DNA from: Fulvia fulva
Lineage: Eukaryota > Ascomycota > Dothideomycetes > Mycosphaerellales > Mycosphaerellaceae
Reading direction: 5' to 3'
DNA: 64,000 nt
Assembly (NCBI RefSeq): GCF_020509005.1
Contig: NC_063012.1
Location: forward strand, 4,898,001 to 4,962,000
In this document: positions 441 through 30,245 of the stretch, piece by piece
Numbering within the stretch: position 1 is the stretch's first letter
Layout of the letters: the number at the start of each line of letters is the position of its first letter
The notes under the pieces: model-generated
The model's database searches: none
Seen by the model: the letters and a program-made list of their open reading frames with translations, nothing else
Told to the model about the DNA's origin: nothing
Program-made: the position numbers and the translations under genes

Positions 441-2127
441 CCCCTAGTAGGCAACGACGTTCGTCTACTCCTTTCTCTAGGAACGGACGACATACCTAGT
501 CCTAGGAAGGTATACGTCCGACCCGGTAAAGGCAGAGACTAGAATACCTTAGGGATCTACTCTCTCCCCTATCCTGTTTCTAATATTTATGTCTGATCTA
601 ATCCCCCTACTCACCTCTCCGCAAACCTTAGTATCGGGGTTCGTAGACGACACAAACATCCTAGCCTAGTCAGACTCGATAGAAGAGAACTGTCGCCTCC
701 TCGAAGATAGGCATAAGAAATGCGAGGAGTAGGCAAAGAAGCATAGTGCCTAGTTCGCCCCTAAAAAGTACTAACTTATACACTTCAGTAAAGCGAGAAC
801 ATACTATAATATAAAGGCGGCGGTAAGAATCTAAGGCTACGAGACAAAGCTATTAGCGGACCTACGAGTACTAGGGATCTAGCTCGACCCGAAGCTAAGC
901 TGGAATGTATAGGTTAAGAAAGCCTAGAGTCGAGTATAAGTCAACGAAGCCTCGATAAAGAGACTTACGGTATCTATATAGGGAGTAACATTCGACAAGG
1001 CAAGAGTAATGTATAAGGCGATCGTTAGACTAGCTATGCTATACGGGGCATAGATTTGGGGAACAGGAGGCGTAGGCAAGCCGATCCCGAAACGGATAGA
1101 GCAACCCCTAAACAGGATATAGGTAGGCAACCTACGTAGGGTACTAGGCGTATATAAGACAACGTTAATAAGCACGGTAGAAATAGAGACAGGAACACTA
1201 CTAATCGGCCAGTACATCCGGGGAATAAGAATTTAATACGCGGTAAGGACGACAGGTTACCTAGTATAAACTACGATCTAGGAGGCAAAGAATAAGATAG
1301 AAAGCCACTACCGGAGAGGGGCCGGACATAGGACAAGCCAAAAAGAGGATGACCTTACTACCTTTACGGCTATATAGACAAGCACCGAATAGCTAGCACG
1401 AAAAGAGGAGGAGCGTAGGACTCGCTAGGCCGGCGGGAGCAAGGCTAAGACCTAAAGCCTAGCGGAATAGATAGCGAGCTACCTATAGGAGCAGGACTAG
1501 AAAAAGAAGCCCCCTAAGACAACAGGCCCGATAGCGCTCCGAGCCTTCTAGAGACACAATTACTAGCTATATAGGGACCTAACAAGGGCCGAGGCAAGCA
1601 TAGCGATCCAAATCAGGTCCGAATATATTAGGTTAAGGGCCTACCTATTTAGAAGACGCGTACTAGACATCTATAGCCCAGCCTACTAGTGTGGCTACCT
1701 ATCGCAAAACCTAGAACATATGCTACTACGATGCCCGTAGTAGGCGAGAGGTAGGGGAAATTGGAGGCACTAAGCGGGAAGGAGAGACTATAAGTCAATT
1801 ATTAGGGACAAAGGCAACATTCGCCGAATCTCTCGGTAGATACTATAGTAGGGATACCTCTAGTAGTTTATCCTCGCTAGCGAGACGGAGGAGTGGATAG
1901 ATAAGAGGCGGAAGCTAGGGGGTAGCAGATAGGGTAGTCATTAGGGTAGGCCTATGACACTAGCGTACCCCTAATAAGGGAAAATTAAGACAACAACTAG
2001 GAGGAAAAGATAGGCGGGAAGGAGGAGGGGTTTTCACTAACACGGTTTCCCCTCTATATATACGAAAACAAGATAGTATAGCTGTATAGGCCAAAGGGCA
2101 CTACAACAGCTTAATGAAATATCTATC
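441..2127 (+). mobile_element. LINE A' relic, 5'-truncated Tad-like LINE
   Basis: The 3' part of a LINE in plus orientation, RIP-degraded. It aligns with the second half of LINE A ORF2. The FVDD box followed by N-I-L-A is near 640, the MYKAIV..AMLYG block near 1010, and the terminal Cys/His motif near 1690. It ends in the same type of tail, an (ATCT)n tract around 2120-2127. It is flanked by 15-bp duplications at 426-440 and 2128-2142 that differ at one C/T position. The element begins inside the reverse transcriptase, as expected for incomplete target-primed reverse transcription. It interrupts Copia1 gag. Confidence 0.85.
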
Positions 2128-5100: not shown

Positions 5101-5190
5101 TAAAGCTTAGAGAGATTAGATTCATATAGTCAGAAGTGGATCTATGCCTACTTATCTATAAGAAGAGGGAGATCATAATCCTTATATATA
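2128..5190 (+). mobile_element. Copia1 relic: gag end, protease, integrase, start of RT (RIP-degraded)
   Basis: Continuation of Copia1 on the plus strand. With stops ignored, the translation follows the intact Copia in order: gag zinc-knuckle region near 2300, protease region near 2690-2720, integrase near 3300-3800, and RT near 4620-5190. The block near 4800-4960 reads as FKARLV..GF followed by VDVNN. The coding sequence stops at 5190, just before the RT Asp-Asp box, where LINE B copy 1 begins. The missing remainder is found inverted at 12635-13729. It is a related but distinct family from the intact Copia, since its LTR is 136 bp rather than 234 bp. Confidence 0.85.
5176..5190. repeat. LINE B target-site duplication in Copia1 (left partner)
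   Basis: TAATCCTTATATATA sits directly before the (GATA)n tail of LINE B copy 1. Its reverse complement occurs at 13715-13729 beside the 5' end of LINE B copy 2, not at the other end of copy 1. Confidence 0.9.
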
Positions 5191-8100
5191 GATAGATAGA
5201 TAGATTTGTCATTCCCCTGTTCTATAACCCTATCCGGCCTATATAGGTATATATCTATTGTTATGTACAAAGGGAAACCCAAATAGGTGAAAACCCTTCC
5301 CGCCCCCGACTACTCCTTATCTAGTTTAGCTTTCCCTCTAAACGTACGTAGTCTATGTTACTACCCCGTTAGCCCCCGCTCCTAGCCGGTCTCGTCGCGC
5401 TACGTCGTATCCTCTCTTCCGGTACTGCTCCTACTAGGCGGTACTGTTCTAGCTAGCCCTTCTCTAGTATCTAGTTCGTAATGCGCCGTAGGTCCTTAGC
5501 GTTGTTAAGAAGTGCCCTAATCGTCCGGTTCCTCGCCTTTACTATCTACTCCCCCCTTCCTAGCGACTACCTCGGATAGACGAGGAGTACGTACCGTACG
5601 TTCTAGGAGCGATAGCCGTAGGGGCAGCTAGTATTCGTGTATCCTAGAACCTTCCTCTATAATAGGTACCCCTAGAGGCCGATGTGTTCGCTTCGTAGTT
5701 AGGTTACTATACTACTCTATACCCTCGTAAGGCGGTAGTAGATAAGCTTCGGGGGGTGCTTGACCGCGGATTTTGTAGCTAACTATTCCTTAGGTTGTCC
5801 CGCTAGCTAAGGGCGTCTACTATGCCCTATAACCTAGTTGTTCTACCTCTCTTTCTATAGTTGCTCTATAAACGATTTCTTACCTTCCTATTATATTACT
5901 AGCTATTCGTCCCTTGCCCGGTAGTTCGGCTCGTTTCCGGGTCGAATGCCCCTATACGCTAGTACTAATTCGCGGGCCCTTACGACTGTACTAGCGATAA
6001 CCTTCTATACTAGGTACTGTGCCGACTTGCCTAAGTAGGAGGTCCGTAGTCCCTAGATATATAGGTCGATCGGCGGTATAGCGGTCTCGTACTTAAGTAT
6101 CCTCGTTAGTGTCGACTTATATGCCCCGGTAACCTTCCTTAGGCATTAGTTTTGGATCTTCGCTAGCGGCGCGACGAGTCCCTTCGATAGGTAGGCCCTC
6201 TCGCCTAAGGACTATACTTGGCTACTATAGGTAAGGACTGGCCGTATAATAGCCGTATATAGAAGTCGTGACTACCGGAAGTCCGCCCCCTATATAGACG
6301 TAGTGAGCCTCTAGTATAATGCTATATTCTGTTTAGCTTTCCGTAATATTGCCTATACGTACTTCCTCTACCGTAGCGCCGGGTCTACCTATAGTCCGAG
6401 GATCCTAAGCTAATTTGCCGGGTTAGTCGTATACCCCTATATCTAGATAGAAGCTTATATATTATAGAACCGTAGCCGGCGCGTAAATTGTATTAGATTG
6501 TACTTTTCTAGGGCAAACCGAGCCCCGTGCCTCCTAGCCTAGTCCTCGTAGATCTTATACTTCTCTTCTAGTAGCCTATAGTTCTCCTTAGTCGAGGAAG
6601 ACTACGCTAGGATATTTATGTCGTCTACGAAGCCGCTCGTAGCGGTGTTCTAGGATTCTAGGGCTAGGAGCAGCGTCGCTATAAAGAAGAGGAACAGAAT
6701 AGGTACTAGCGTTAAGCCTTACGGGATTCTAGTATAGACTGCTTGAAATAGGCTTCTATACTAGCCGACTAGGATCGACGTACTACGGTTTTAGAGGTAG
6801 GACCTTACGAAGTTAACAAGCCACTTAGAGAGTCCCTTCGACCTTAGGATATAGAGTAGCCGCGGGTATAACACGTAGTCGAAGGCTCCCGATATGTCTA
6901 GGCTAAGTAAGGAAGCTACCTTGTCCCTATTCTTATACTAGATAGCCTTTACCTAAGAGGTGATAAGTTCTATCGCGGATAGCGTCGATCGCTATAGGCG
7001 CGTACCTATCTAGGTGTCCGGGAGTAGGGAGTGTTCCTCTACCGCCTCGGAGAGTCTCGTTATAACTAGCTTCTTAAGCGCCTTCCTAAGAGTGTTAAGG
7101 AGCGCAATTAGGCGGTACGACTTCACCTACGTATAGTCTTCCTTCTACGGCTTACGTAGGACTACTGTCGTCGATTGTTTAAAAGCTATCGGGTGGTATC
7201 CGGTCTATAGGCAGGCGTTAAAGATCGCTATAACTACTAGGGCTAGTTGATCTCTACACTTCTTTAGTAGCTCGTTTAGGATCCTATCCGGCCCCGGGGC
7301 TTTCTTCGCCGGCAACTTCCTTAGTATAGCGGCAACTTCTCCCTCGGACACCTCCTATTAGACCGCGATACTAGGGGCTAGGGGAGTAGAGCTGTTTATA
7401 TCGCTTAGATTAGCCTCGACTAGGGGCGGGAAGAACTTGCTAGCTAGTAGACGCGCCTTAGCCTCGGGGTCGCTAACCGGGCTACTAGGCGATTGTAGCG
7501 CTAGGATAGAGAAGGAGGGGCCCTGTATAGGGTCCTATCGGGCCCATTTCGCTAGCTTCTACATCCTCTCTAGCTTGCCGGCGATTTCTTCTACTATAGC
7601 CCTCTAGCCGACTACTTTCTCCCTTCGTATTATAGCTTTCTTCTATTAGTATGCCTCCCTATATACGTTCTAGGCCTCCTCGCTATAGCTGCTCGTCTAT
7701 ACCCGGCGGGCTCTCCTTGCTTCTCTTACTACCGTAGTATACTCCGGCGTCTAGTATAGTTTAGACTATATCGTTAGTTAGGCAAGCGGAACGTAAAGTA
7801 AGGTCGCTTTTCTTATTTCGTCTATTAACCCCTAGACTACTTCGTCTCTCTCGTCTTTACTGTTGTATTACTACTACGCGATCTGGACTAGCCTCTTAGA
7901 GTCATCGAGGTACGCCTAGATGTTGGCCTAGTGGGCCTTTCCCTAGTTTAGCTTAGGGGTTCTCGCTAGTATACGTTATATCTATGTCGTAATAGAGGTC
8001 CTGACTAGCATATGGTCTAACGACGCCTCGAGTTTATATTCGATCCTATAGTAGGTTACCGTGTAGTAGTAGCTATCTAAGATCTAGGAGAGGTCGATCG

Positions 8101-10186
8101 TGCCTTAGAGTCCCCCTCTCTTCTAGGTGCCTAGGTCCTTCGGGGTATTAAGGGCAATTACGTTACTCGCTATCAAGTCGAGTACTTCGTCGGCTATAGG
8201 GTGCGGCTATATAAGGCTTTCCTAGGAAGGGTGGTATATATTAAAGTCTCCTACTACGATGTGGCACCCTTGTCTTTTAAGCGTACTGTCTAGGTGTCTA
8301 TAGACCCCTAGGTCGCGGCTAGACCTCGAGGCTAGCGGTTATATATATAGGTTATGTATCTAGGTACTACCTACGTAGAGGGAGGTAATATCGCCCCCGC
8401 CTTCTTCGTCTACGTAGTACACTACCTCCTAGTCGGATTCTAGTATGTCCTTACTAATATAGAAGCACGTACGGGGTCTGCCGTCGCCTCGTAGGCATGT
8501 CGTATAGCCTAGTAACTTGTAGGTCGTTAGTCTCTTATAGTGCGGGTTAATCTATAGCTCCTAGATTATAAGGACGTAGTAGACGCGCGGGTCCGCCTCG
8601 TGTAGGAAATAGTTCTAGACTATATCCTTGCTATAGTTAACGTTATACTAGATGATACTAAGCGTGTCGAGGCTAGTTATCGGTATCGACAATCATTTCC
8701 TCTATATCGTCCTATGTCCTACTGCCCTATACGTCCTAGTCTACGCCTATCGGCTATATACTAAAGGGGAGCCGGGCCTAGTTAGATTCCCTCGCCGTAG
8801 CTAGTAGAGCACGTGGCCTTCCGTACGCCCTAGGTTACGTATCCTTTATATCGTTCTTAGCCCTAGGGCGCTTATACCCGACCGCCGCTAGTTAGTTCCG
8901 GTATAGGCTAGCCTTACGGTTGCCGTAGAATCTTAGGGCGACGGTTCTGTTTATGATTACCTTGTTTTTCGCTAGTTTCCGCTATAGGCATTCCGTACTA
9001 TACGATAGGTAGTGCCCCGGACAGTTCGCGTACCGTCTCGTAGTCGATATATAGTCCCTAGATATATAGTCTCCTATATAGTTCGAGGAGGCCTACTTGT
9101 TTATACACGTGTAGGTTTAGTGTCTATACTATTAGCATTTGAAGTATTAGAGGACACGAAAGGATAAGGAGTGCTTTTCTACTATCTTAAGGCTATATTG
9201 CTAGACTAGGCCTTATTCTATTACTAGATCCGCCGCTTTCGCGTCTTATAGCTATACTATTAGCGCCGAGGCCTTCTTACCTTCTGGCCATTTCCTATAG
9301 AGCCAAGTCGCCTTCTAGATTAGAGAGTTAAGAGTGACCGGGTTGTCCTCTTAGAGAGCGCGTAGGTGACCCTAGTTAGTTAGGTCAAACTCCTTAGGCA
9401 TATCGTAGACTAGGATCGTGAATTGTTTCGTTAAGACCTTCGCTAATGCCGTAACCTTAGATACCTACTATAGCTGTGCCTCTAGGTGCCTCCTAGTAGT
9501 AGTAGAGCTAGTATAGATCTATAGAGTGCCGTTAGACTGTTAGTTTACTACGACCACCCCTAGTTAGTTAATTCGTTAGGCGAGCTCCTTGTTCGATAGC
9601 TTCGTAACTTCGGCCTAGTCTTCCTTTGCTATAATACGGATCGTAACTACATCGTGCGTTAGGCGGGGGCCTAGTATCGATGCCGCGACCGATGCCTAGC
9701 TATAGGGGTGTTGATTCCGGGTGGCCTTACTAAGCGCCTAGGACGTCGTCCTTATTTCTTATTGCCCTCGGTAATACGACAGTACAAGCGCCGTACGTAG
9801 CTAAGTGATCATTACCTATAGAGACCGGTAAGGGAGCTAATCGTTAGTTTCTATACTTTTTACGTCCTCTATAAGTTGCTACTAGTTGTCTTAGGGGGGC
9901 TTCGCCTATAGGGCCGTAGGCGCCGTTAGTACCGTAGCCTAGGCTACTATTGCCTAGGAGTTGCCTAATGTAGCTAGGCACCTCCGCGGCGTTTAGAGCT
10001 AAAGAAACAGGGTGAGGAGAGCTTCAAGCTATCTAGATTAAATAAGGTAGAACTCCCTTAGTCCTAGGGGTAGTGGCCTGCTTTATATATCGTTAGAATA
10101 GCCTTAATAAGAGCTTTCGAATGTGTCTTATTTTGGCGTAGAGATCAGCTCGTGGTAATACTATATCCCTCGAAGTTATTATATAT
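5191..10186 (-). mobile_element. LINE B copy 1, Tad-like LINE (RIP-degraded, about full length)
   Basis: A 5-kb non-LTR retrotransposon on the minus strand. The 3' end is the (GATA)n tract at 5191 (an (ATCT)n tail in sense), and the 5' end is at about 10186. In sense order it has an ORF1 with a CCHC-type Cys/His region near 9150-9000, an apurinic endonuclease with a GDFN..HP box near 8240, and an RT with its Asp-Asp box near 6625. It is near-identical to the copy at 13730-24246, with differences that look like scattered C-to-T/G-to-A changes. Multiple stops make it inactive. No RNase H was recognised. Confidence 0.88.
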
Positions 10187-10200
10187 ATATAAGAGATATA
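10187..10200. repeat. LINE B target-site duplication in Gypsy A (right partner at copy 1)
   Basis: ATATAAGAGATATA adjoins the 5' end of LINE B copy 1. Its reverse complement is at 24247-24260, next to the 3' tail of LINE B copy 2. Confidence 0.88.
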
Positions 10201-11028
10201 CTAATACTTACGATAGTAGATAGCCTTAGTATAAGTAGTCTAAGCTAAGTACGTAAACTAGACGCGTATACCTATACTACGGTACGCCGAAGGCGACGAA
10301 GTATAGGTAAGTACTAAGAACTAGACGATAGAGAGACCTTCTCGTAAGATAGACGTAAAGTAGTCTAGACCGTACGTAATTACGGAGGTACTATCGGGCA
10401 ATACTTATAAAGTAGAGCTCCTACCTACTTTAAATATTAATAATTGCTTCTACTTATACCTTCTTATACTAGTTTATCCGCCGATTATAGGACAGACATA
10501 ACCCGTACTACTACCGATCAGAATTATTAACGACGAATAATACGAAACCGATCCCGCCGAACCCGATTAATAGGAAGTTAAGCAAATTCTAGACTATAAG
10601 AAGAGATGGCCGCGAGGACTAATACCGGTAGGAGGCAAGTAGCTATATTAGGAATACTTAGTAAAATATATTAGATATAATAAGCTATCCTAGAAAGCTA
10701 CGGACTAGGTTATCGAGACTACTACCGCCTCCGTAGCCGACTTTTACTATAACTACCCGAGAGCGACTAAGCTACCTAGTTTTTAACTACCTATAGACTA
10801 GATACCGAATAAGAATGCTATAGGTATACGTATAGCGCGCTAACTAGTATAAGTAGCGATAGCTCTAATACCGGTAGGACTAGGCCTCCGGGCTTATAAG
10901 AAAGAGAGCGATATACGTAGTCTAATAGATAATAAGGTATTTACGAAGGTAATAAGAGATATAATAGATACGACAGATATAAGAGGAGAGGAGAGTGCTC
11001 CGGAGCGTACTCTAAGAGGAGGGGGTAG
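10187..11028 (+). mobile_element. Gypsy A 3' part: integrase C-terminus and chromodomain (RIP-degraded)
   Basis: The end of a Ty3/Gypsy pol in plus orientation. Around 10560-10790 the translation reads like an integrase chromodomain: EVKQILDYKK, then EYLVKYI.YNK, then a W/T region and DFY.NYP. Just before the LTR lies a polypurine tract, AGAGGAGGGGG, at about 11015-11025. The upstream half of this element is on the minus strand at 24247-30245, so this piece is inverted relative to it. The chromodomain marks the element as a chromovirus. Confidence 0.75.
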
Positions 11029-11213
11029 TGTTACCGTACCGGCGTATATTTACTTAAACCTATAGGTACGTACCTAGACCCTACGCCCGCTAACTAATCT
11101 GACTAGCGGCTTAGCGCCCGTATATAACTCTCGCGCCCTCCGCGCCTCTCTTAGATAGAACATCTATTCGACTTATACCTTACCCGACTACGTACTTATA
11201 CCTACTTATAATA
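11029..11213 (+). repeat. Gypsy A 3' LTR
   Basis: A 185-bp LTR starting TGTTACCG right after the polypurine tract and ending CTTATAATA (from AACA by C-to-T). It matches the reverse complement of 30246-30430 end to end with RIP-type differences. The flank at 11214-11218 (tagag) does not match the flank of the other LTR, so no target duplication is visible. Confidence 0.88.
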
Positions 11214-12498
11214 TAGAGTACGCCTATTATCTAGGTATAGCTTCTTTCCGATATAGCTAGTCTACGTAAGATAGTCTAAGTAGCTATTACCGACTCTATA
11301 CTAAACGAGGTCTTCCTAATAGAGCCTAGTAACGCGAGTAATATATATTATATTTTAAAGAGCGATCTATAGCTATTTACAAGACTATTGCTATTTACTA
11401 TCTATTCGAGAGTAGAGTTAAAGTAGATCTACTACTACTATAGAGAACTATATATAACTTCGTTATTTACCGAGCCGTTACTACTAATAGTATAATACGA
11501 CTAATCTCGTAGACTTATCTAATCCGCGGAGAGCTCGAGTTAATATAATATAGCCGTCGCCGCCTACTAGAGCTATTTCTTATTCTACTCGCTAATAGTA
11601 ATATAAATAAGGTTATCTTATCGCTATTCCTATTATTCTTAGACGCTTTCGGACTCTATCGCGGTATATACCGCTCGCTAATAGAGATATATCTTATTCT
11701 TACCGGACTGTTACTATAAGAGCGTAACCGCGTATCGAATATATTACCGCTATTGCTTAGCCTATATAGTAGTAATACCTAAGAGGTTCTTAATATCCTT
11801 ATACTATATCTTACGACCCTCGACGAAGGTAAGATCGTTACTCTACCGGATAGATCTAAGGCTATACTCTACGCCTCTACGTTTATACTTATCGGCGATT
11901 TACTATAGTAGTAAGAGAATAGTAGTATACTCGGTCCTATATCCTCTATATCCTCCCGCTACTACTATATTATAAGCGAGGATCGAGGTAACCTTATAGT
12001 TAGCGTCTCGGATCTACGGTATTATTACGAGAACGAGCGTATACGGAAGTCTATATTCTATATATCCGTATTAGCGAGAAAGGTACACGGATAGAAGTAC
12101 GATATACTTCTAGATTCGCTAGCTATTTAGCGTATTCTACCGGTACTAGATACTATTATTACCCGCCTATCTAATCTAGTATACTTAGAATCTTAGGGTA
12201 TATTACTAAACGTAGACCTCCTTATCCTAGGTAAGATACTTATACCGGATAGCTTAATCCCTTATAGAAAGACGCTTTATATCTTCTTACGTCCGCTAGA
12301 CTAGAATAAGCTATAATCTTATAACTATATCGAGAGCTATAGCTTATCTAAGAACGGACGTTAGTTAATCTAGGTTCTAGTATAGATAAGAATATATCTT
12401 ATTAAATAGGTACGGGTAGATAGTAGCGGAGTAGAGTAAGAGATCAATCTTTAACTAACTAATAGTACGAGTATAAAGCAATATATTAGGAACCAATA
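11214..12498 (+). pseudogene. RIP-degraded relic resembling a fungal DDE (Tnp2/Plavaka-like) transposase
   Basis: Plus-strand translation with stops ignored gives a long coding-like stretch around 11400-12450. It includes IGDLLQQQENS near 11900, then IISEDRGN and a string of Leu-rich segments. This layout recalls the fungal transposase family with a GD(M/L)PQQQ.NSG block (Tnp2/Plavaka type), from memory only. No termini or target duplication are recognised. It sits between the Gypsy A 3' LTR and the Copia1 3' LTR and lies within the inverted segment. Confidence 0.4.
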
Positions 12499-12634
12499 TG
12501 TTGATTGTGTTAGATGTCTATCTAAGCTAAAGGGTAGAGAAGGTATCTCCCTATAAGCTAAGTTATTGTAGATGCCTTAGGCTACTAGATCACTTCCTAA
12601 TTATTAACTCCCTTTGAGATGCTATATCTTAACA
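12499..12634 (-). repeat. Copia1 3' LTR (136 bp)
   Basis: On the minus strand it reads TGTTAAGATATAG...CAATCAACA, with matching TGTT/AACA ends. It is preceded in sense by a short purine tract (GAGTAGGAG) equivalent to the PPT of the intact Copia. Its position directly after the RNase H end of Copia1 supports the call. The 5' LTR is outside the window. Confidence 0.7.
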
Positions 12635-13729
12635 CTCCTACTCATCTTATATAGGAGGTTATAGTCTGCTCACTTCCTGTTAATAGTACTTAGACCTTTC
12701 TATAATAGGTTAAGCTAGCTTATAAACCTCTAGAAGTATAGACTAGTCTTTGGTTTTATAAACCCGTCTATAACTATCTCAGAGGTTAGAGTGTACTTAA
12801 TAGTAATAAGCCTCCTCTACTAAAGTTTCCTAATAGCGTTATAGGCAATGTCAATGTACTTCGACTTGTTATAAACATATATATCTTTTACTAGAGTAAG
12901 GGTAGCTTGATTGTCACCTCTAAATTAGACTGGTCTTAAATTTGATATAGTCTCCTAGTTTCTAGTGATTCTTAGTTAATAGGAATAGTCTCCTACTAAT
13001 TCTAGACAATCCATTTCTCTTAGTAGTAAAGCTAGGAATTAGGACTACCTTATATATACATTTATAGCTATATATTTAGCCTTTATTATAGATGTTGCTA
13101 CAGACTTTTGCTTCTTACTTATCTAAGAAACTAGTGCCCTATAGAGGAAGAAGACATACCTAAGGATTAAGACTCTATCTACTTTGTCTATTATATAATC
13201 AGAATTATAGTATCTAATAAGGTGTCCTTTTCTAGAATTTAAGAACTAAAGTCCTAGATCAGGGTATGATCTTAGGTACCTAGTGATCTTCTTTAAAGCC
13301 TTTATATAGTAGGTAGATAGGTCACTTACAAATGAGCTCATCCTTCCTAGAGCAAAAGCAATGTCTAGCCTTATAATTGTTACTAGCTATATCTAAGTAC
13401 TATTAATACTCTAGTACTCTGCCTTATCACACCTCTTATCTATATAGCTTAAAGGTTTGAGGGCCTTATAGCTGTCTATAGGTGAGTGTATAGGTGCTGC
13501 CTTCTTATAGTTCATTCCTATCTTAGCTAGGCTATCCCTAACAAAGTGTCCTTAGTCAAGTTTTAGGATTCCTCTCTTCCTGTCCCTTATAACTCTTATA
13601 CTAAGGATCTTTTTAGGTTCACCTAGATCTTTGATCTTAAAGATCTTACTAAGTTCTCTTTTGAACTAGAGAACATCTATTAACTTTAGTATAGCAATTA
13701 GAATGTCATCTATATATATATAAGGATTA
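12635..13729 (-). mobile_element. Copia1 relic: end of RT and RNase H, inverted
   Basis: The C-terminal part of the Copia polyprotein on the minus strand, aligning with 17428-18440 of the intact element (RNase H and the region after the RT Asp-Asp box). It begins in sense at the exact point where the plus-strand Copia1 stops at 5190, with a shared 15-bp duplication. It is therefore the missing 3' end of the same element, now in the opposite orientation. Confidence 0.85.
13715..13729. repeat. LINE B target-site duplication in Copia1 (right partner)
   Basis: TATATATAAGGATTA is the exact reverse complement of 5176-5190. It adjoins the 5' end of LINE B copy 2. Confidence 0.9.
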
Positions 13730-16700
13730 GTAGCCTAAAACGCTTATCGATCTCTACGCTAAAACAAGACACATTCGAAAGCTCTTATTAAGGCCATTCT
13801 AACGATATATAAAGCAGGCCACTGCCCCTAGGACTAAGGGAGTTCTACCTCATTTAATCTAGACAGCTTAAAGCTCTCTTCACCCTATTTCTTTAGCTCT
13901 AAACGCCGCGGAGGTGCCTAGCTACATTAGGCAACTCCTAGGCAATAGTAGCCTAGGCTACGGTACTAACGGCGCCTACGGCCCTATAGGCGAAGCCCCC
14001 CTAAGACAACTAGTAGCAACTTATAGAGGACGTAAAAAGTATAGAAACTAACGATCAGCTCCCTTACCGGTCTCTATAGGTAATGATCACTTAGCTACGT
14101 ACGGCGCTTGTACTATCGTATCACCGAGGGCAATAAGAAATAAGGACGACGTCCTAGGCGATTAGTAAGGCCACCCGGAATCAACACCCCTATAGCTAGG
14201 CATCGGGCGCGGCATTAATACTAGGCCCCCGCCTAACGCACGATGTAGTTACGATCCGTATTATAGCAAAGGAAGACTAGGCCGAAGTTACGAAGCTATC
14301 AAACAAGGAGCTCGCCTAACGAATTAACTAACTAGGGGTGGTCGTAGTAAACTAACAGTCTAACGGCACTCTATAGATCTATACTAGCTCTACTACTACT
14401 AGGAGGCACCTAGAGGCACAGCTATAGTAGGTATCTAAGGTTACGGCATTAGCGAAGGTCTTAACGAAACAATTCACGATCCTAGTCTACGATATGCCTA
14501 AGGAGTTTGACCTAACTAACTAGGGTCACCTACGCGCTCTCTAAGAGGACAACCCGGTCACTCTTAACTCTCTAATCTAGAAGGCGACTTGGCTCTATAG
14601 GAAATGGCCAGAAGGTAAGAAGGCCTCGGCGCTAATAGTATAGCTATAAGACGCGAAAGCGGCGGATCTAGTAATAGAATAAGGCCTAGTCTAGCAATAT
14701 AGCCTTAAGATAGTAGAAAAGCACTCCTTATCCTTTCGTGTCCTCTAATACTTCAAATGCTAATAGTATAGACACTAAACCTACACGTGTATAAACAAGT
14801 AGGCCTCCTCGAACTATATAGGAGACTATATATCTAGGGACTATATATCGACTACGAGACGGTACGCGAACTGTCCGGGGCACTACCTATCGTATAGTAC
14901 GGAATGCCTATAGCGGAAACTAGCGAAAAACAAGGTAATCATAAACAGAACCGTCGCCCTAAGATTCTACGGCAACCGTAAGGCTAGCCTATACCGGAAC
15001 TAACTAGCGGCGGTCGGGTATAAGCGCCCTAGGGCTAAGAACGATATAAAGGATACGTAACCTAGGGCGTACGGAAGGCCACGTGCTCTACTAGCTACGG
15101 CGAGGGAATCTAACTAGGCCCGGCTCCCCTTTAGTATATAGCCGATAGGCGTAGACTAGGACGTATAGGGCAGTAGGACATAGGACGATATAGAGGAAAT
15201 GATTGTCGATACCGATAACTAGCCTCGACACGCTTAGTATCATCTAGTATAACGTTAACTATAGCAAGGATATAGTCTAGAACCATTTCCTACACGAGGC
15301 GGACCCGCGCGTCTACTACGTCCTTATAATCTAGGAGCTATAGATTAACCCGCACTATAAGAGACTAACGACCTACAAGTTACTAGGCTATACGACATGC
15401 CTACGAGGCGACGGCAGACCCCGTACGTGCTTCTATATTAGTAAGGACATACTAGAATCCGACTAGGAGGTAGTGTACTACGTAGACGAAGAAGGCGGGG
15501 GCGATATTACCTCCCTCTACGTAGGTAGTACCTAGATACATAACCTATATATATAACCGCTAGCCTCGAGGTCTAGCCGCGACCTAGGGGTCTACAGACA
15601 CCTAGACAGTACGCTTAAAAGACAAGGGTGCCACATCGTAGTAGGAGACTTTAATATATACCACCCTTCCTAGGAAAGCCTTATATAGCCGCACCCTATA
15701 GCCGACGAAGTACTCGACTTGATAGCGAGTAACGTAATTGCCCTTAATACCCCGAAGGACCTAGGCACCTAGAAGAGAGGGGGACTCTAAGGCACGATCG
15801 ACCTCTCCTAGATCTTAGATAGCTACTACTACACGGTAACCTACTATAGGATCGAATATAAACTCGAGGCGTCGTTAGACCATATGCTAGTCAGGACCTC
15901 TATTACGACATAGATATAACGTATACTAGCGAGAACCCCTAAGCTAAACTAGGGAAAGGCCCACTAGGCCAACATCTAGGCGTACCTCGATGACTCTAAG
16001 AGGCTAGTCCAGATCGCGTAGTAGTAATACAACAGTAAAGACGAGAGAGACGAAGTAGTCTAGGGGTTAATAGACGAAATAAGAAAAGCGACCTTACTTT
16101 ACGTTCCGCTTGCCTAACTAACGATATAGTCTAAACTATACTAGACGCCGGAGTATACTACGGTAGTAAGAGAAGCAAGGAGAGCCCGCCGGGTATAGAC
16201 GAGCAGCTATAGCGAGGAGGCCTAGAACGTATATAGGGAGGCATACTAATAGAAGAAAGCTATAATACGAAGGGAGAAAGTAGTCGGCTAGAGGGCTATA
16301 GTAGAAGAAATCGCCGGCAAGCTAGAGAGGATGTAGAAGCTAGCGAAATGGGCCCGACAGGACCCTATACAGGGCCTCTCCTTCTCTATCCTAGCGCTAC
16401 AATCGCCTAGTAGCCCGGTTAGCGACCCCGAGGCTAAGGCGCGTCTACTAGCTAGCAAGTTCTTCCCGCCCCTAGTCGAGGCTAATCTAAGCGATATAAA
16501 CAGCTCTACTCCCCTAGCCCCTAGTATCGCGGTCTAATAGGAGGTGTCCGAGGGAGAAGTTGCCGCTATACTAAGGAAGTTGCCGGCGAAGAAAGCCCCG
16601 GGGCCGGATAGGATCCTAAACGAGCTACTAAAGAAGTGTAGAGATTAACTAGCCCTAGTAGTTATAGCGATCTTTAACGCCTGCCTATAGACCGGATACC

Positions 16701-17158
16701 ACCCGATAGCTTTTAAACAATCGACGACAGTAGTCCTACGTAAGCCGTAGAAGGAAGACTATACGTAGGTAAAGTCGTACCGCCTAATTGCGCTCCTTAA
16801 TACTCTTAGGAAGGCGCTTAAGAAGCTAGTTATAACGAGACTCTCCGAGGCGGTAGAGGAACACTCCCTACTCCCGGACACCTAGATAGGTGCGCGCCTA
16901 TAGCGATCGACGCTATCCGCGATAGAACTTATTACCTCTTAGGTAAAGGCTATCTAGTATAAGAATAGGGACAAGGTAGCTTCCTTACTTAGCCTAGATA
17001 TATCGGGAGCCTTCGACTACGTGTTATACCCGCGGCTACTCTATATCCTAAGGTCGAAAGGACTCCCTAAGTGGCTTGTTAACTTCGTACGGTCCTACCT
17101 CTAAAACCGTAGTACGTCGATCCTAGTCGGCTAGTATAGAAGCCTATTTTAAGTAGTC
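13730..17158 (+). mobile_element. LINE B copy 2, 5' two-thirds (RIP-degraded)
   Basis: The plus-strand copy of LINE B. It has the ORF1 Cys/His region near 14750-14880, the endonuclease GDFN..HP box near 15648, and RT motifs from about 16560. It is the inverted partner of 5191-10186. The first 20-40 bases differ from those of copy 1, so the two 5' ends were not identical. The coding sequence is interrupted in the RT by the intact Copia and resumes at 22696. Confidence 0.88.
17154..17158. repeat. Target-site duplication of the intact Copia (left)
   Basis: TAGTC is repeated at 22696-22700. The homologous position in LINE B copy 1 reads CAGTC, so both duplicates carry the RIP-changed T. Confidence 0.93.
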
Positions 17159-17392
17159 TATTAAACAGGTACGAGTTGCGTAGCAGTGGAAGACGGCGGA
17201 TCACACGAAAGACGAAGAAGGACCTAATGGGATAGCGTGTATCTACATACAGTATCGCCGGTGTTGGTGTAGGTAGATGCTAGGTGTCCGGATGTTGGCC
17301 AGCCTATAGGCTGGCAAACCCTAGTCACGTGATCTAATCACATGACACACCCACACCTACATGCTTGTCCTGCGGCCTGTATGTTCTCAACA
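17159..17392 (-). repeat. 3' LTR of intact Copia
   Basis: 234 bp. In sense it starts TGTTGAGAACA and ends TTTAATA; the terminal CA has become TA through the change at 17160. It contains a palindromic CCAGCCTATAGGCTGG. It differs from the 5' LTR only at 17160 and 17181. Confidence 0.95.
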
Positions 17393-17402
17393 CTCCCACT
17401 CA
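17393..17402 (-). promoter_or_regulatory. Polypurine tract of intact Copia
   Basis: In sense GAGTGGGAG directly precedes the 3' LTR start TGTTGAG. This is the expected plus-strand priming site. Confidence 0.7.
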
Positions 17403-17427
17403 GGCCACATGGTCTCCTACAATCCCT

Positions 17428-20400
17428 TTACGCAAGCTGGAGCTGCCTTACAAAGTTTTGGAACTGCTGGCCATTGAGGGGCTTTGTTAACCCATCAGCA
17501 GCCATGTCCTTTGTATGGCAGTAGTCCACTGCAATCTTCTTCTGCCACCAGAGATGTCTGACATAGTTATATGCAACATCAATATGCTCTGACCTTTCAT
17601 GCACATGGGCATCTTTGACAAGTGTCAAAGCGGCTTGGTTGTCACCCATGAGCTTGACTGGCCTTAGCTCGTCAACAGTGCCCTTGCTTGCCCTTACACT
17701 CGGCTGGAAAGAGCTCTTTCCCACCAGTTCTGGGCACCCCATTTCCCTGAGGACAGCAGCAAGAAATTGTGACTGCTTTGCGGCTGCGTTCATAGCCATG
17801 AACTCAGCTTCCATTGTTGATGTTGCAACAGACTTCTGCTTCCTACTCATCCAGGACACAGGTGATCCACAAAGGAACCACACGTATCCCAGAATTGAGA
17901 CTCTATCCACTTTGTCCATAGCGTAGTCAGAGTCCGAGTATCCCTGGAGATTGCCCCCTCCCTTTCTATACATAAGACCTAGGTCTGGGTACGACCGCAG
18001 GTATCGGGAGAGCTTCTTCAAAGCCTTCATATGCTGCTGCGAGGGATCAGCAACAAATGAGCTAATTCTTCCAAGGGGGAATGCTAAGTCTGGCCTTGTC
18101 ATTGTCATTGGCCACATCCAGGTACCATTGTGGCTCTGGTAATCCTGTTTGTTGCACCTCTCATCCATAGGTGCCGTAGGCACTAAATGCTCGTAGCTCT
18201 CCATAGGTGAGTGGGTTGGCGTAGCCTTCTCTCTAGCCATGTTCATCTTGGCTAAGTTAGCGTGGACATAGTGTCCTTGATCAAGCTTCAAAGTGCCTTG
18301 GGACCTGTCTCTTGTAATCCTCATTCCAAGGATCTTCGTAGGTTCACCAAGATCTTTAATCTTAAACACTTTTCCAAGCTCAGCCTTAAACCACTGAACA
18401 TCTGACAGCTTCGGAGCTGCAATGGGTATGTCATCCACATGGGTAAGGACCATAAGGTCTCTATCCGTATGGATAAGTAGGCATGGATCTACCTGGGACT
18501 GGGTAAATCCAATCTTCTCTAGCTTCGCAACACAGAGCTTGTTCCAGTCTCTAGCTGCTTGCTTAAGCCCATAAAGGCTTCGTAGGACCTTGAACACCAT
18601 GTTTGGAGGTGCTTCAACTCCTGGGGGTGGGATCATATAGATGTCTTCAAGAAGGCTGCTTTGGGTAAAAGCATTATTCACATCCACTAGGTGCATCTCG
18701 AGATCTCTCTCACATACTACTGCCATGAATACTCGGAGAGTATCATGTCTAACAGTAGGTGCAAAGGTCTCTTCGAAGTCAACCCCATATTTCTGTGAAA
18801 ACCCTCTTGCAACTAGTCTTGCCTTGAACTCCTCAATGGCTCCACTAATCATTCTTTTCACATCAAAGACCCACCTAGAAGTAATTAGATTCGCACCCTT
18901 TGGCGGTACAACTGCTTCCCAGGTGTTGTTGCTTGCTAAGGCAATAAGTTCGTTCTCGATTGCCTCTCTCCACATATGTCCCCATTCGGGGTCTCCTACG
19001 GCTGCCTTATAGGACTTTGGGATTGGCACTTCCTGCTGATAGGCTATGGCCTGCCCAACAGCAGCAAATGCATGTTCTTCCACGTCGTTCAGAATCTCCT
19101 CTACCCAGCTCATTGTAGGGTCTAGATGGAACATCTGGGCGATAAGAGCCTTATGGTGTTTAGCCTCATGCTCTTCAGAGTTATCATCTCCGTCCCCCCT
19201 TGACCTCTTGTTGCCTGCAACCTGAGGTGGCGCTAGGTGTTCGGATGGGTCGAACTGAACGACATCTTCTTTTTCTTTCATTGGAGTACCCTGATCTCCA
19301 AACTTCTGGTATTCCCCAATGTCCTTTGGGGGAGGGGGAAGTTGCACAAACAGCGGTTGCTGTGGTGTTGATGACTTGGGTAGGTTCTGTACAGATCCAC
19401 CGTTATCGGCCTTCGACAGTGTTGAAACCGCCTCAATATTTTCTCCTGGCCTTCGTAACGGTGTCTCTGATAATCCCCTATCGGAAAATTTCGCCCCAAA
19501 GGGCTTCCTCCCAACAGGATTGCGCTGTGGCGCTCGACTCGGCTGGTTAGTGAAGGTGATACCAAGATCCATATCTCCCCCCTTCTCATTCTCAAACCAG
19601 TCGACGTGACTATGCGCTTTTATTGCTTTCATGTCGGGATCCCAGAACAGCCATTGTTTTGTGGTGTTTTCTGAGTAGCCCACAAACACGGCTTCTTTTC
19701 CTCGGTTCATCAACTTGTCTCTCCTCAAGCCTTGAGGTTGGGCTCTTGGGTCTACATAGACCACAGCTTTGCATCCCCAGACGCGGAAATGGTCGACTGA
19801 CGGTACTTGGCCAGTAAAGGCTTCTTCTGGTGAAAGAGCAATACCATCAATGATCGGACCATTAGGCAGTCTGTTTCTGATCACAGTCTGTGCTTGCAAA
19901 GCTTCTGGCCAGAACTCAACTGGCATGCCAGAGTCTTCAAGCATAGCCCGGACTGTGTTCTCAGAGGCTTGAATTGACCTTTCCACAGGTCCATTTTGAA
20001 GAGAGTTGTAGGCATCAGTTGTGTCCATCTGAGTGCCAAACTCCTTCTCCCACTCTTTTAGCAAGGCGAGAATTTCCTTTGCACCATCACTGCGGATCGC
20101 AGACAGAAAGCACCTTGACTGCCGTTCTGCCTGGACCTTCCAATCCCGTAGGGCTGCAGGAGCGTCGCTCCTGGCCTTCAAAGGGATTACCCACTTCTTC
20201 CTAGAGAAGTTGTCTACAATCTCAAGCCAATATTTGTATCCTAGCCTAGAGACTGCGTCCTGAAAAGGCCCACAGATGTCAATGGAGATGAGGGCCAGCC
20301 TCTCCCCTTTCCTCTCTGTGGCAGGTCCTTTGAACTTCCTCATGTTTGCAAGGGAGCAGACCTTGCAATTCTGGTGTTCAGAAGGAACAGGAATGGGATC

Positions 20401-22128
20401 TTTCTTGTCAGTGACTCTATGCAGGTTTCTTAGCAGTCCCTTGCCAAGGTGTGCACATCTTCTATGCCATAGCTCCCACTGATCTTCGGACTCAGTGTTA
20501 GCCATAGCGGTACCGTCACGTTCTTGAGAGCGTATGCCAGCATGCTGTGGCTCAAGAATTTCCGAGATCGAGTGGATAAACGGTACTCCTCCTCGAAGTT
20601 TGGTCTGGACAACGGGTTTACCAGACAAGGATTTTAGGGTGAAACTGGGTGGTTGGACAGCAAACTGTTGGCTGAACTGATTCCACGAAACAAGACTAAC
20701 TCCAAGGCCAGGAACAAACAGGACATTTTCTAAGACAATTTGCTTTCCAGAAGGACCACCCATTACTGCACTTCCCATATGTGTAGCTTGTAGATAGCCA
20801 CCCCCAACCTTGATCCACTTCCTCTTTTGAAGAGGCTTCAGTGTCCTGAATAGTGAATCTTGGTCAGTCATATGTGATGATGCACAAGAGTCAAGCAACC
20901 ACTCGGACGAGGGGTACTTGCCTTTGGCTTCCACAGTGGAATGGGCAACCTCATCAACATCATCATCTCCTGATGGTATCTCAGGGTCTGATGCGTCTTC
21001 CTGGGTCGCATGGGCCCTTGCAGGCTTACTAGAGGAGGCCTTTGGCTTGCGGCTCTCCTTCATCTGCTTTGCAAGGTCCGTCATCACCTTGAGGACATCA
21101 CGAAGGTTTGGTGATGATGACCTCCTACGAGGTGGTGACGGTTGTCTCTTAGCAGGGTAGGTAACCCTAGCTAGTTTGTCCTTGTTCCTAACAGCCTGCT
21201 GAGCTGCAGAAAGGTGTGGGCACTTGCTCATAAAATGGTCACCACCGCAGAGATGGCACGTGAGCTTGCCCTGGAAACCCTTCTTAGCGAACATGGCTGT
21301 CCCTTGATGAATCATTGATTCTTGCTTCTCCCTAAGAATTGCAAGAATGTCTTGTGGTAAGAGATTCACCTGGGCATCAATTGCATCGCGAATTGAGCCA
21401 AATGAGTCTGGCAGAGCTGCTAAGAGTTGCTGGATCTTTCTGTCCTCAGTCTTGATGTCTTGGAACTGAGGCGAGATTGAAACAGCCCTCCTTGCAATTG
21501 AGCTAAGCTCCTGCCAGGCGTCATCTATAGACTGGTCTTCTGTCATCACGAAATTGGTGTATTGCTGAAGCAAACTTCTTCCAGTAGCGAGAAGTCTTCT
21601 CTTATATTTAGCTTCAGCCCATTCCCACAACTCCTTCGCATGCCGGATCTCGTATGTCATCTCTTGGTCATCTGTCGACAGACAGATGTACATCTCATAC
21701 AGGGCCGTTGCATTGTGCCGTCTGTACGATGCCTTCCTTATCGCTTGATCCAAAGGAAGGGATGACTCCGATGATGCAGAGGGTGTCGCTATAGATGGGG
21801 TTGCAGCGGGAATGTCCGTGATGATGTCTTCGAGGACCCAGTCAACCTGCTTTGATACCAGGTGTATTCTCATCAGCTTGAACCATGTTTCGTGGTTCTC
21901 TCTTGTCAGAAGAGGTGCTGCTCTCTTTCTTATAAACCCAGTCTCGTTCTCCATTTTTTGTAAGTTGAGGGACAGGTTGGCTGCCCTCAGGTAAAAGGAT
22001 GTATTCGGTCGTACGCGATCGGATCGAAATGGGATAAACCGAACGCGAGGTTGATAGCGGAGAGGATGGCTATCCGCCGGGAAGAGGAGGAAAGTCGGTC
22101 GGTAAGGATCGTGTTGGTGCTGAGACAC
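17428..22128 (-). CDS. Copia gag-pol polyprotein, intact
   Basis: A single 1566-codon frame encoding all Copia functions in the Pseudoviridae order. Gag (about 60-290) leads to a CCHC knuckle (CHLCGGDHFMSKC, 291-303), then the protease DSCASS motif (413-418), which has Cys where Gly is usual after Asp-Ser. The integrase zinc finger is H555/H560/C588/C591, and the integrase triad is D617, D681, E716 with the typical D-35-E spacing. RT (about 1068-1310) has HVDD at 1230-1233, and RNase H (about 1390-1530) has SDSDYA, TMEAEF and GDNQA. The first 58 codons look unlike gag, so Met59 (21954) is the more likely start. No stop or frameshift is present. Protein made from a genomic-length LTR transcript is expected to be self-cleaved. 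Confidence 0.95.
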   Translation of the reverse strand: MSQHQHDPYRPTFLLFPADSHPLRYQPRVRFIPFRSDRVRPNTSFYLRAANLSLNLQKMENETGFIRKRAAPLLTRENHETWFKLMRIHLVSKQVDWVLEDIITDIPAATPSIATPSASSESSLPLDQAIRKASYRRHNATALYEMYICLSTDDQEMTYEIRHAKELWEWAEAKYKRRLLATGRSLLQQYTNFVMTEDQSIDDAWQELSSIARRAVSISPQFQDIKTEDRKIQQLLAALPDSFGSIRDAIDAQVNLLPQDILAILREKQESMIHQGTAMFAKKGFQGKLTCHLCGGDHFMSKCPHLSAAQQAVRNKDKLARVTYPAKRQPSPPRRRSSSPNLRDVLKVMTDLAKQMKESRKPKASSSKPARAHATQEDASDPEIPSGDDDVDEVAHSTVEAKGKYPSSEWLLDSCASSHMTDQDSLFRTLKPLQKRKWIKVGGGYLQATHMGSAVMGGPSGKQIVLENVLFVPGLGVSLVSWNQFSQQFAVQPPSFTLKSLSGKPVVQTKLRGGVPFIHSISEILEPQHAGIRSQERDGTAMANTESEDQWELWHRRCAHLGKGLLRNLHRVTDKKDPIPVPSEHQNCKVCSLANMRKFKGPATERKGERLALISIDICGPFQDAVSRLGYKYWLEIVDNFSRKKWVIPLKARSDAPAALRDWKVQAERQSRCFLSAIRSDGAKEILALLKEWEKEFGTQMDTTDAYNSLQNGPVERSIQASENTVRAMLEDSGMPVEFWPEALQAQTVIRNRLPNGPIIDGIALSPEEAFTGQVPSVDHFRVWGCKAVVYVDPRAQPQGLRRDKLMNRGKEAVFVGYSENTTKQWLFWDPDMKAIKAHSHVDWFENEKGGDMDLGITFTNQPSRAPQRNPVGRKPFGAKFSDRGLSETPLRRPGENIEAVSTLSKADNGGSVQNLPKSSTPQQPLFVQLPPPPKDIGEYQKFGDQGTPMKEKEDVVQFDPSEHLAPPQVAGNKRSRGDGDDNSEEHEAKHHKALIAQMFHLDPTMSWVEEILNDVEEHAFAAVGQAIAYQQEVPIPKSYKAAVGDPEWGHMWREAIENELIALASNNTWEAVVPPKGANLITSRWVFDVKRMISGAIEEFKARLVARGFSQKYGVDFEETFAPTVRHDTLRVFMAVVCERDLEMHLVDVNNAFTQSSLLEDIYMIPPPGVEAPPNMVFKVLRSLYGLKQAARDWNKLCVAKLEKIGFTQSQVDPCLLIHTDRDLMVLTHVDDIPIAAPKLSDVQWFKAELGKVFKIKDLGEPTKILGMRITRDRSQGTLKLDQGHYVHANLAKMNMAREKATPTHSPMESYEHLVPTAPMDERCNKQDYQSHNGTWMWPMTMTRPDLAFPLGRISSFVADPSQQHMKALKKLSRYLRSYPDLGLMYRKGGGNLQGYSDSDYAMDKVDRVSILGYVWFLCGSPVSWMSRKQKSVATSTMEAEFMAMNAAAKQSQFLAAVLREMGCPELVGKSSFQPSVRASKGTVDELRPVKLMGDNQAALTLVKDAHVHERSEHIDVAYNYVRHLWWQKKIAVDYCHTKDMAADGLTKPLNGQQFQNFVRQLQLA

Positions 22129-22442
22129 TGTAGCGTAACTCTCTCAGCAGAGGGGGTTTCTGAGACACTGCGGCTCTCTCAGATGGAACAGTTAGTCGAT
22201 GCGAACGCGATGTCCGGAGAGCGACTCTTCTCAGTAAGCTCGCCCACTTGTCTGAGGTATTGGCACAGGCTCCCTGACTCGGAGTCTGACAGTGCCTCAC
22301 TAGGCTCTTTCACGTCTTATATGCACCTACAGCGCGGCTGTAGCTTCCTGTGCAATGCGGGTGCGGCCTCCAGTCTGCCTTCCTTTTGTTCTGAAGAGGA
22401 ATAACTCCAATACGACTTTGTCGAGGGTGAAACACCGAGTTG

Positions 22443-22461
22443 CTAACCCGGGCTCATAACC
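22443..22461 (-). promoter_or_regulatory. Copia primer binding site, half-tRNA-iMet type
   Basis: Immediately inside the 5' LTR the sense strand reads GGTTATGAGCCCGGG. It is complementary to GGGCUCAUAACC, the anticodon arm of initiator tRNA-Met, rather than to a tRNA 3' CCA end. Drosophila copia uses the same arrangement, in which a tRNA cut in the anticodon arm primes minus-strand synthesis. The match is seen in the sequence; use of the half tRNA is inferred from the family. Confidence 0.75.
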
Positions 22462-22695
22462 TGTTAAACAGGTACGAGTTGCGCAGCAGTGGAAGACGGC
22501 GGATCACACGAAAGACGAAGAAGGACCTAATGGGATAGCGTGTATCTACATACAGTATCGCCGGTGTTGGTGTAGGTAGATGCTAGGTGTCCGGATGTTG
22601 GCCAGCCTATAGGCTGGCAAACCCTAGTCACGTGATCTAATCACATGACACACCCACACCTACATGCTTGTCCTGCGGCCTGTATGTTCTCAACA
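22462..22695 (-). repeat. 5' LTR of intact Copia
   Basis: 234 bp with intact TG..CA ends (on the plus strand TGTTAAACAGG...TCTCAACA). It should carry the element's promoter. Confidence 0.95.
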
Positions 22696-24246
22696 TAGTC
22701 TATACTAGAATCCCGTAAGGCTTAACGCTAGTACCTATTCTATTCCTCTTCTTTATAGCGACGCTGCTCCTAGCCCTAGAATCCTAGAACACCGCTACGA
22801 GCGGCTTCGTAGACGACATAAACATCCTAGCGTAGTCTTCCTCGACTAAGGAGAACTATAGGCTACTAGAAGAGAAGTATAAGATCTACGAGGACTAGGC
22901 TAGGAGGCACGGGGCTCGGTTTGCCCTAGAAAAGTACAATCTGATACACTTTACGCGCCGGCCACGGTTCTATAGTATATAAGCTTCTATCTAGATATAG
23001 GGGCACACGACTAACCCGGTAAATTAGCTTAGGATCCTCGGACTATAGGTAGACCCGGCGCTACGGTAGAGGAAGTACGTATAGGCAATATTACGGAAAG
23101 CTAAACAGAATATAGCATCATACTAGAGGCTCACTACGTCTATATAGGGGGCGGACTTCCGGTAGTCACGACTTCTATATACGGCTATTATACGGCCGGT
23201 CCTTACCTATAGTAGCTAAGTGTAGTCCTTAGGCGAGAGGGCCTACCTATCGAAGGGACTCGTTACGCCGCTAGCGAAGATCTAAAACTAATGCCTAAGG
23301 AAGGTTACCGGGGTATATAAGTCGATACTAACGAGGATACTTAAGTACGAGACCGCTATACCGCCGATCGACCTATACATCTAGGGACTACGGACCTCCT
23401 ACTTAGGCAAGTCGGTACAGTACCTAGTATAGAAGGTCATCGCTAGTGTAGTCGTAAGGGCCCGCGAATTAGTACTAGCGTATAGGGGCATTCGACCCGG
23501 AAACGAGCCGAACTACCGGGTAAGGGACGAATAGCTAGCAATATAATAGGAAGGTAAGAAATCGTTTATAGAGTAACTATAGAAAGAGAGGTAGAACAAC
23601 TAGGTTGTAGGGTATAGTAGACGCCCTTAGCTAGCGGGATAACCTAAGGAATAGTTAGCTATAAAATCTGCGGTTAAGTACCCCCCGAAGCTTATCTACT
23701 ACCGCCTTACGAGGGTATAGAGTAGTATAGTAACCTAACTACGAAGCGAACACATCGGCCTCTAGGGGTACCTATTATAGAGGAAGGTTCTAGGATACAC
23801 GAATACTAGCTACCCCTACGGCTATCGCTCCTAGAACGTACGGTACGTACTCCTCGTCTATCCGAGGTAGTCGCTAGGAAGGGGTAAGTAGATAGTAAAG
23901 GCGAGGAACCGGACGATTAGGGCACTTCTTAACAACGCTAAGGACCTACGGCGCATTACGAACTAGATACTAGAGAAGGGCTAGCTAGAATAGTACCGCC
24001 TAGTAGGAGTAGTATAGGAAGAGAGGATACGACGTAGCGCGACGAGACCGGCTAGGAGCGGGGGCTAACGGGGTAGTGATATAGACTACGTACGTTTAGA
24101 GGGAAAGCTAATCTAGATAAGGAGAAGTTAAGGGCGGGAAGGGTTTTCACCTATTCGGGTTTCCCTTTGTATATAACAATAGATATATACCTATATAGGC
24201 CGGATAGGGTCCTAGAACAGGGGAATGACAAATCTATCTATCTATC
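22696..24246 (+). mobile_element. LINE B copy 2, 3' third (RIP-degraded)
   Basis: Resumes the RT exactly where 17158 left it, after the duplicated TAGTC (22696-22700). The Asp-Asp box (GFVDD..NILA) is at about 22803-22832, and the C-terminal region and 3' UTR follow. The (TCTA)n tail runs to 24246, then comes the duplication 24247-24260. Joined with 13730-17158 the copy is about 4.98 kb, like copy 1. Confidence 0.88.
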
Positions 24247-24260
24247 TATATCTCTTATAT
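24247..24260. repeat. LINE B target-site duplication in Gypsy A (left partner)
   Basis: TATATCTCTTATAT, an exact reverse complement of 10187-10200. Confidence 0.88.
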
Positions 24261-30200: not shown

Positions 30201-30245
30201 TAGCTTCTCGTGTCTCTCTATACGTTAGTAATAATCTATTCGAAG
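24247..30245 (-). mobile_element. Gypsy A 5' part: gag, protease, RT, RNase H, integrase start (RIP-degraded)
   Basis: Ty3/Gypsy internal region on the minus strand with near-complete loss of CpA/TpG. In sense, a long charged gag region comes first (about 30200-28050), followed by pol. An RT block reading FLDDFVLYYL...LIFSKTREEY is at about 26300-26200, and RNase H and integrase follow toward 24300. It stops in the integrase at LINE B copy 2; the remaining integrase and chromodomain are at 10187-11028 on the other strand. Every frame is closed by many stops. Confidence 0.78.

Follow-up and report, generated by a model that had tools for sequence, protein, structure and literature searches.

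Crossed target duplications point to an inversion between two oppositely oriented LINE copies in Fulvia fulva

Why do two long interspersed nuclear elements (LINEs) in the genome of the tomato leaf-mould fungus Fulvia fulva (C. fulvum in the papers cited below) each appear to share a target duplication with the other LINE, rather than to carry one at their own two ends? The two copies lie in a window of 64,000 nucleotides (C1:4898001-4962000, contig NC_063012.1), which we compared with the whole genome of 67,169,167 bases in 14 contigs. Each LINE has part of a Copia element (Copia1) on its left and part of a Gypsy element (Gypsy A) on its right, and the two parts of each host element stand in opposite orientations. 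A preliminary description, made from the sequence of the window alone, had explained this by homologous recombination between two LINEs already inserted in opposite orientation. Our analysis supports that explanation through four lines of evidence, namely the crossed duplications, the joined empty sites, a near-identical tract and the pairing of a 5-bp motif, and we consider an inversion by ectopic homologous recombination between the two inverted LINEs very probable on the strength of these sequence comparisons. The features at the junctions are as follows, in window positions.

2127-5190, plus strand: internal part of Copia1, mutated by repeat-induced point mutation (RIP) and cut inside its reverse transcriptase
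5176-5190, plus strand: 15-bp target duplication, first copy, TAATCCTTATATATA; junction read directly
5191-10186, minus strand: LINE copy 1, 4,996 bp, with reverse transcriptase RVT_1; recombinant by the crossed-duplication argument
10187-10200, plus strand: 14-bp target duplication, first copy, ATATAAGAGATATA; junction read directly
10187-11213, plus strand: 3' part of Gypsy A with its 3' long terminal repeat (LTR, about 11031-11213), in the opposite orientation to the rest of the element
12400-13729, minus strand: 3' part of Copia1 with its 3' LTR (12400-12634), inverted relative to 2127-5190
13715-13729, minus strand: 15-bp target duplication, second copy, exact reverse complement of 5176-5190
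13730-24246, plus strand: LINE copy 2, interrupted by a nested Copia element
24247-24260, minus strand: 14-bp target duplication, second copy, exact reverse complement of 10187-10200
24247-30430, minus strand: 5' part of Gypsy A with its 5' LTR (30248-30430), reverse transcriptase, RNase H and a weak match to the integrase H2C2 domain

Both duplications pair exactly across the two copies, at the junctions given in the preliminary description. Of 28 other LINE loci in the genome, the first 20 served for comparison; four were dropped as their 3' end was not found, leaving 16 with both ends. Twelve of these 16 control LINEs carried a duplication of 10-15 bp at their own two ends, and the other four had only 6-8 bp. 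When the flanks of different LINEs were paired wrongly (n=240), the longest match was 13 bp, seen once, and matches of at least 11 bp occurred twice, so that none of the 240 mismatched pairs was as long as the crossed matches of 14 and 15 bp in the window. At their own ends the window LINEs match over 9 bp and 8 bp, lengths equalled by 34 and 79 of the 240 mismatched pairs, respectively. The own-end matches are thus within chance, and a matching duplication at a copy's own two ends, one of the two refuting findings named in the preliminary description, is not seen. The target duplications have been exchanged between two homologous, oppositely oriented LINE copies, one at each breakpoint, and all four outer LINE ends and all four duplications are intact.

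The host elements are broken at the same junctions. To the left of 5190, the Copia reverse transcriptase profile (PF07727, RVT_2) is matched over positions 11-166 (68 bits). A second piece, on the minus strand from 13719, covers profile positions 166-242, but its 25.1 bits (E 1.6e-5) do not reach the Pfam cut-off of 31.6. The profile therefore breaks and resumes at position 166, in agreement with Copia1 being interrupted in its reverse transcriptase at 5190 and continuing, inverted, at 13729. Gypsy A had been described as broken in its integrase. An H2C2 zinc-binding match upstream of the break agrees with this, but it is weak (23.8 bits, cut-off 25.5), and a profile search did not detect the integrase core. 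The two LTRs of Gypsy A stand in inverted orientation within the window.

We asked how the two host sites look elsewhere in the genome when the halves are joined as they would be without the inversion. The Copia search listed 39 other full matches (the best 40 of 1,024 candidates scored), of which we cut out 29, and the joined site was uninterrupted in 28 of these 29 loci, each with a gap of 2-4 bases in a TA run. Several of the loci are near-identical (L011/L012, L021-L023 and L029/L030), which leaves 25 distinct ones, and after merging, 24 of the 25 were uninterrupted. On the Gypsy side the list likewise had 39 other full matches (the best 40 of 677 candidates scored); seven were cut out, and the joined site was uninterrupted in all seven. 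By contrast, the empty site that LINE copy 1 would have in the order now assembled was found in none of 103 loci compared. Thus, the halves do not appear to come from different Copia or Gypsy subfamilies; halves of different subfamilies were the other finding that, according to the preliminary description, would refute it.

These sites also bear on a different history, in which the halves belong to different Copia and Gypsy copies and the LINEs inserted independently at the same nucleotides, with no inversion at all. We regard this as extremely unlikely. The one exceptional Copia locus among the 29 (L014/L069) lends it some weight, as a different LINE occupies the same nucleotide there, with the same orientation; the TA-rich LINE target in Copia at 5190 is somewhat preferred. 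Independent insertion is also favoured by the incomplete 5' LTR of Copia1 and the mismatched terminal flanks of Gypsy A, both described below. None of the 39 other full Gypsy-side matches listed, however, runs into a LINE (again the best 40 of 677 candidates), the motif AGATA stands at both ends of Copia1, and the near-identical tract links just these two LINEs.

The AGATA motif flanks the outer ends of Copia1, one of which probably lies beyond the window.

Window coordinate -2421, left of the window (L101): start of a probable Copia1 5' LTR
439-2126: LINE-like sequence before the Copia1 interior
11214-12399: stretch within the inverted segment, ending in AGATA (12395-12399, minus strand)

A 200-bp match to the Copia1 3' LTR begins at -2421, which corresponds to the LTR start, and AGATA directly precedes it. 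In the direction of the element, the Copia1 3' LTR is followed by AGATA at 12395-12399, a motif found at none of 21 other Copia 3' flanks. AGATA is therefore the probable target duplication of Copia1, pairing across the inversion. The LINE-like sequence at 439-2126 occurs at the same Copia position in C9:1213774-1215176, one of the 39 other matches listed.

Aligning the two LINEs for a crossover point revealed a tract in which they are almost the same.

7125-9593, minus strand: near-identical tract in copy 1 (copy coordinates 594-3062), with the crossover placed inside it or at its edge
14302-16770, plus strand: near-identical tract in copy 2

Omitting gaps and the unrelated leaders at the LINE starts (the first 40 bases of copy 1, 10147-10186, and the first 19 of copy 2, 13730-13748), we counted five differences in 2,469 bases within copy coordinates 594-3062 and 78 in 2,487 aligned bases outside. 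Transitions of the CpA/TpA type made up four of the five differences within and 51 of the 78 outside. The best two-rate segment was 594-3062; segments within two log units started at 510 or 594 and ended at 2937-3183, giving a tract of about 2.3-2.7 kb, and the log-likelihood gain was 38.9, whereas 200 random placements gave no gain above 9.5. Among 30 LINE copies, which are the two of the window plus the 28 other loci and form 435 pairs, the window pair was the closest of all over positions 594-2640, with two differences in 2,047 bases, where the next pair differed by 2.35% and the median was 3.57%. Over positions 41-593 it was ordinary (17 differences in 553). This identity profile along the copies excludes the possibility that one window LINE is a recent transposition product of the other. 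The comparison of copies supports the view that the tract is the expected scar of a direct strand exchange between these two LINEs, and we infer that the crossover fell in the LINE 5' half, at about 594-3062. A crossover inside the tract would make the inverted segment 4.7-9.6 kb long. The event had been described as a 3.5-kb inversion, a figure that fits only its non-LINE part.

The tract also bears on whether the arrangement is an assembly artefact, with the two LINE copies joined the wrong way round and the real chromosome uninverted. An assembler could well go wrong at inverted 5-kb repeats that share a near-identical tract of 2.5 kb. A plain misjoin, however, predicts about 3% divergence everywhere and a collapsed consensus predicts identity, whereas we observed five differences in 2,469 bases. 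The Race 5 assembly was made from PacBio reads with a mean length of 14.6 kb at about 125x (PMC9453070), and a read of average length can cross the 5 kb of LINE copy 1 together with the 3.5-kb segment and flanking sequence. The structural variant (SV), coverage and Hi-C checks reported there describe an assembly essentially without major misassembly, with two SV calls lacking Illumina support and with Hi-C in agreement; the assembly-check section of that paper contains no discussion of small inversions in repeats. We consider a misjoin very improbable.

A further alternative is that the inversion arose by end joining or replication-based repair, and that the LINEs were homogenized separately through non-crossover conversion. 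In its favour, an inverted LINE pair on C6 has a 572-bp substitution-free stretch and no crossed duplications. Such a route would nonetheless require both breaks to fall in homologous LINE sequence without loss, and the outer ends and duplications are intact; we give it scarcely any credence.

The C6 pair consists of L044 (C6:414113-418903) and L059 (C6:444990-449951), which lie 26 kb apart. Their 572-bp stretch is free of substitutions, although L044 has lost some 0.16-0.18 kb inside it, and by our estimate the stretch is only marginally significant. We rejected this pair as another inversion, as L044 has its own 14-bp duplication and the crossed matches are at most 7 bp. L059 is without any clear target duplication.

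Several observations weigh against an inversion by recombination between the LINEs, or against parts of that account. The probable 5' LTR of Copia1 is missing its final ~35 bp, and between it and the interior at 2127 lies other sequence of about 4.3 kb. Because it is incomplete and separated it may belong to another copy, and AGATA may match by chance, so the motif is support rather than proof; for this reason our confidence in the inversion came down by a small step, to a level that is still high. Gypsy A, when turned back, has complete LTR ends, but these are flanked by TCGGC and TAGAG (11214-11218 and 30431-30435). Of nine Gypsy end pieces fetched, six formed three control pairs and three were single ends, and all three control copies had matching 5-bp flanks (GCTAA, CGGAA and GTATA). 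A swapped partner of the Gypsy A ends gave no match to two exact patterns, and among the Gypsy copies none is conspicuous as a near-identical match to Gypsy A, the best reaching 96-97% (96% over 25800-29600). Turning the segment back thus restores the Copia and Gypsy A junctions, as had been claimed, but leaves the flanks of the Gypsy A LTR ends mismatched. Gypsy A may itself have arisen through another exchange, or its flank may have changed in some other way; the mismatch leaves the LINE junctions untouched. In addition, the LINE family is star-like, so that parental variants cannot trace the exchange and the converted tract stands in for them. Finally, L044 and L059 are near-identical (0.47%, over 1201-1800 only) without an inversion, and the tract alone is therefore no proof of a crossover. 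The evidence comes from one assembled genome sequence, which makes the word 'proved' in the preliminary description too strong for an inversion that is otherwise well supported.

Two further loci on C3 were set aside. A LINE at C3:2904804, whose match reached query base 1260, is not within Gypsy, and a Gypsy-like end adjoining a Copia end reflects a Copia inserted in Gypsy sequence, which is unrelated.

For the inversion by recombination between the LINEs, we propose that Copia1 and Gypsy A each originally contained one of the LINEs, and that some 1.2 kb of DNA, apparently single-copy, separated the two hosts. A crossover in the LINE 5' halves (about 594-3062) would have turned round all that lay in between: the 5' parts of both LINEs, the 1.2-kb stretch, and the 3' parts of the two host elements, Copia1 and Gypsy A. 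The exchange would have come with gene conversion across some 2.3-2.7 kb, which erased an earlier divergence of ~3% there. The tract keeps 97-99 CpA/TpG sites against about five differences, which suggests that RIP has hardly acted on it since the exchange. Less securely, these few new RIP-type changes, together with the description of C. fulvum as reproducing almost exclusively asexually (PMC10823647), suggest that the event may have been mitotic. The same paper reports hotspots of RIP-type single-nucleotide polymorphisms between isolates and RIP that is recent in parts of the genome, which counts against a mitotic step. A more speculative extension, which we think doubtful, is that the inverted LINEs, being near-identical again over 2.5 kb, allow the segment to flip repeatedly. 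The Gypsy A ends would then record a second exchange, earlier or later, and the locus would be a serial, mitotic, post-RIP hot spot at which recombination undoes RIP divergence in an almost asexual fungus.

The elements themselves have the features of LINEs, namely an RVT_1 reverse transcriptase, target duplications of variable length and a simple 3' tail of ATCT units. In four C. fulvum isolates, Tad1 elements are given as 29.2-31.0% of repeats (PMC10823647). The window copies and the 28 other loci (L041-L068) have a common core starting from GATCTCTACGC, with differing leaders between target duplication and core. In the 12 copies whose duplication is clear, the leaders measure 7-63 nt. Some leaders are common to several copies (AAAACGCTTAT; CTCGACGCGTCGGCTTAT) and others, such as that of copy 1, are unique among these loci; different transcript starts or template jumps could possibly account for them.

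LINE copy 2 contains a further element.

17159-22695, minus strand: nested Copia in LINE copy 2, with no signs of RIP and one open frame of 1,571 aa

It is bounded by the target duplication TAGTC (17154-17158 and 22696-22700), and its LTRs differ at two of 234-235 positions. Compared with the tract, this gives a Fisher test value of 0.055 (2/235 versus 2/2,056) or 0.12 (versus 5/2,469). The nested element lies outside the tract and is not part of the inversion mechanism. Loss of CpA/TpG is strong in the LINEs, the inverted segment and Gypsy A, milder at the left end (1-4500), and absent from the nested element and from the stretch at 36-42 kb. In that stretch lies a sequence related, at about 60%, to the LINE-like one at 439-2126. 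For the Race 5 genome as a whole, 39.2% has been reported as RIP-affected (PMC9453070). We found no other genome match for 11214-12394 or 30431-30700, a search result that does not prove rarity. For one gene of the window, the best named relative comes from Dothistroma septosporum (89%).

If our reading is correct, this filamentous fungus underwent an exchange between RIP-mutated transposons that were about 97% identical, and ~3% divergence does not prevent ectopic exchange. Because an inversion keeps both exchange products side by side, the locus would directly measure an ectopic crossover and its probable conversion tract, and own versus crossed duplications combined with a local identity tract would provide a simple counting rule for whole genomes. 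This inversion did not appear in a literature search that covered passages and sections, but no supplementary files, of the C. fulvum genome papers PMC9453070 and PMC10823647. The latter reports 718 SVs between Race 5 and 0WU, nearly all of them insertions or deletions, and these may include it.

Related events are known from other systems. In human and chimpanzee, recombination between inverted L1 or Alu pairs has produced inversions (Lee et al. 2008, PMC2603318) with the same hallmarks of opposite non-LTR elements at both breakpoints and mismatched duplications around chimeric copies (probable chimeras in the present case), and there too the ancestral state was read from the duplications. 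That study also used BLAT and PCR, whereas our yardstick was uninterrupted Copia and Gypsy sequence in the same genome; the term gene conversion is absent from its main text, whereas here a tract was measured. The Galileo inversion 2z3 of Drosophila buzzatii (PMC2775673) likewise involves elements in opposite orientation, exchanged duplications and breakpoints within the elements. Galileo, however, is a DNA transposon, and parental variants placed the 2z3 exchange within 141 bp, unlike the present star-like family, in which the exchange is placed within a long converted tract. The 3.6-kb MAT inversion of Sclerotinia sclerotiorum (PMC3574095) is likewise a small fungal inversion that lies between inverted repeats, and crossing over has been suggested for it; its repeat is 250 bp of a mating-type gene, it segregates 1:1 in progeny, and the abstract names no transposon. 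Within the same species, an Avr5 deletion in one C. fulvum isolate is flanked by two LINE/Tad1 copies (PMC10823647), but these lie on the same strand and the outcome is a deletion, and two inversions described there measure 654 kb and 1.2 Mb. Crossed duplications after recombination between transposable elements are thus already known in Drosophila and primates, and the case described here is an unusually well preserved one.

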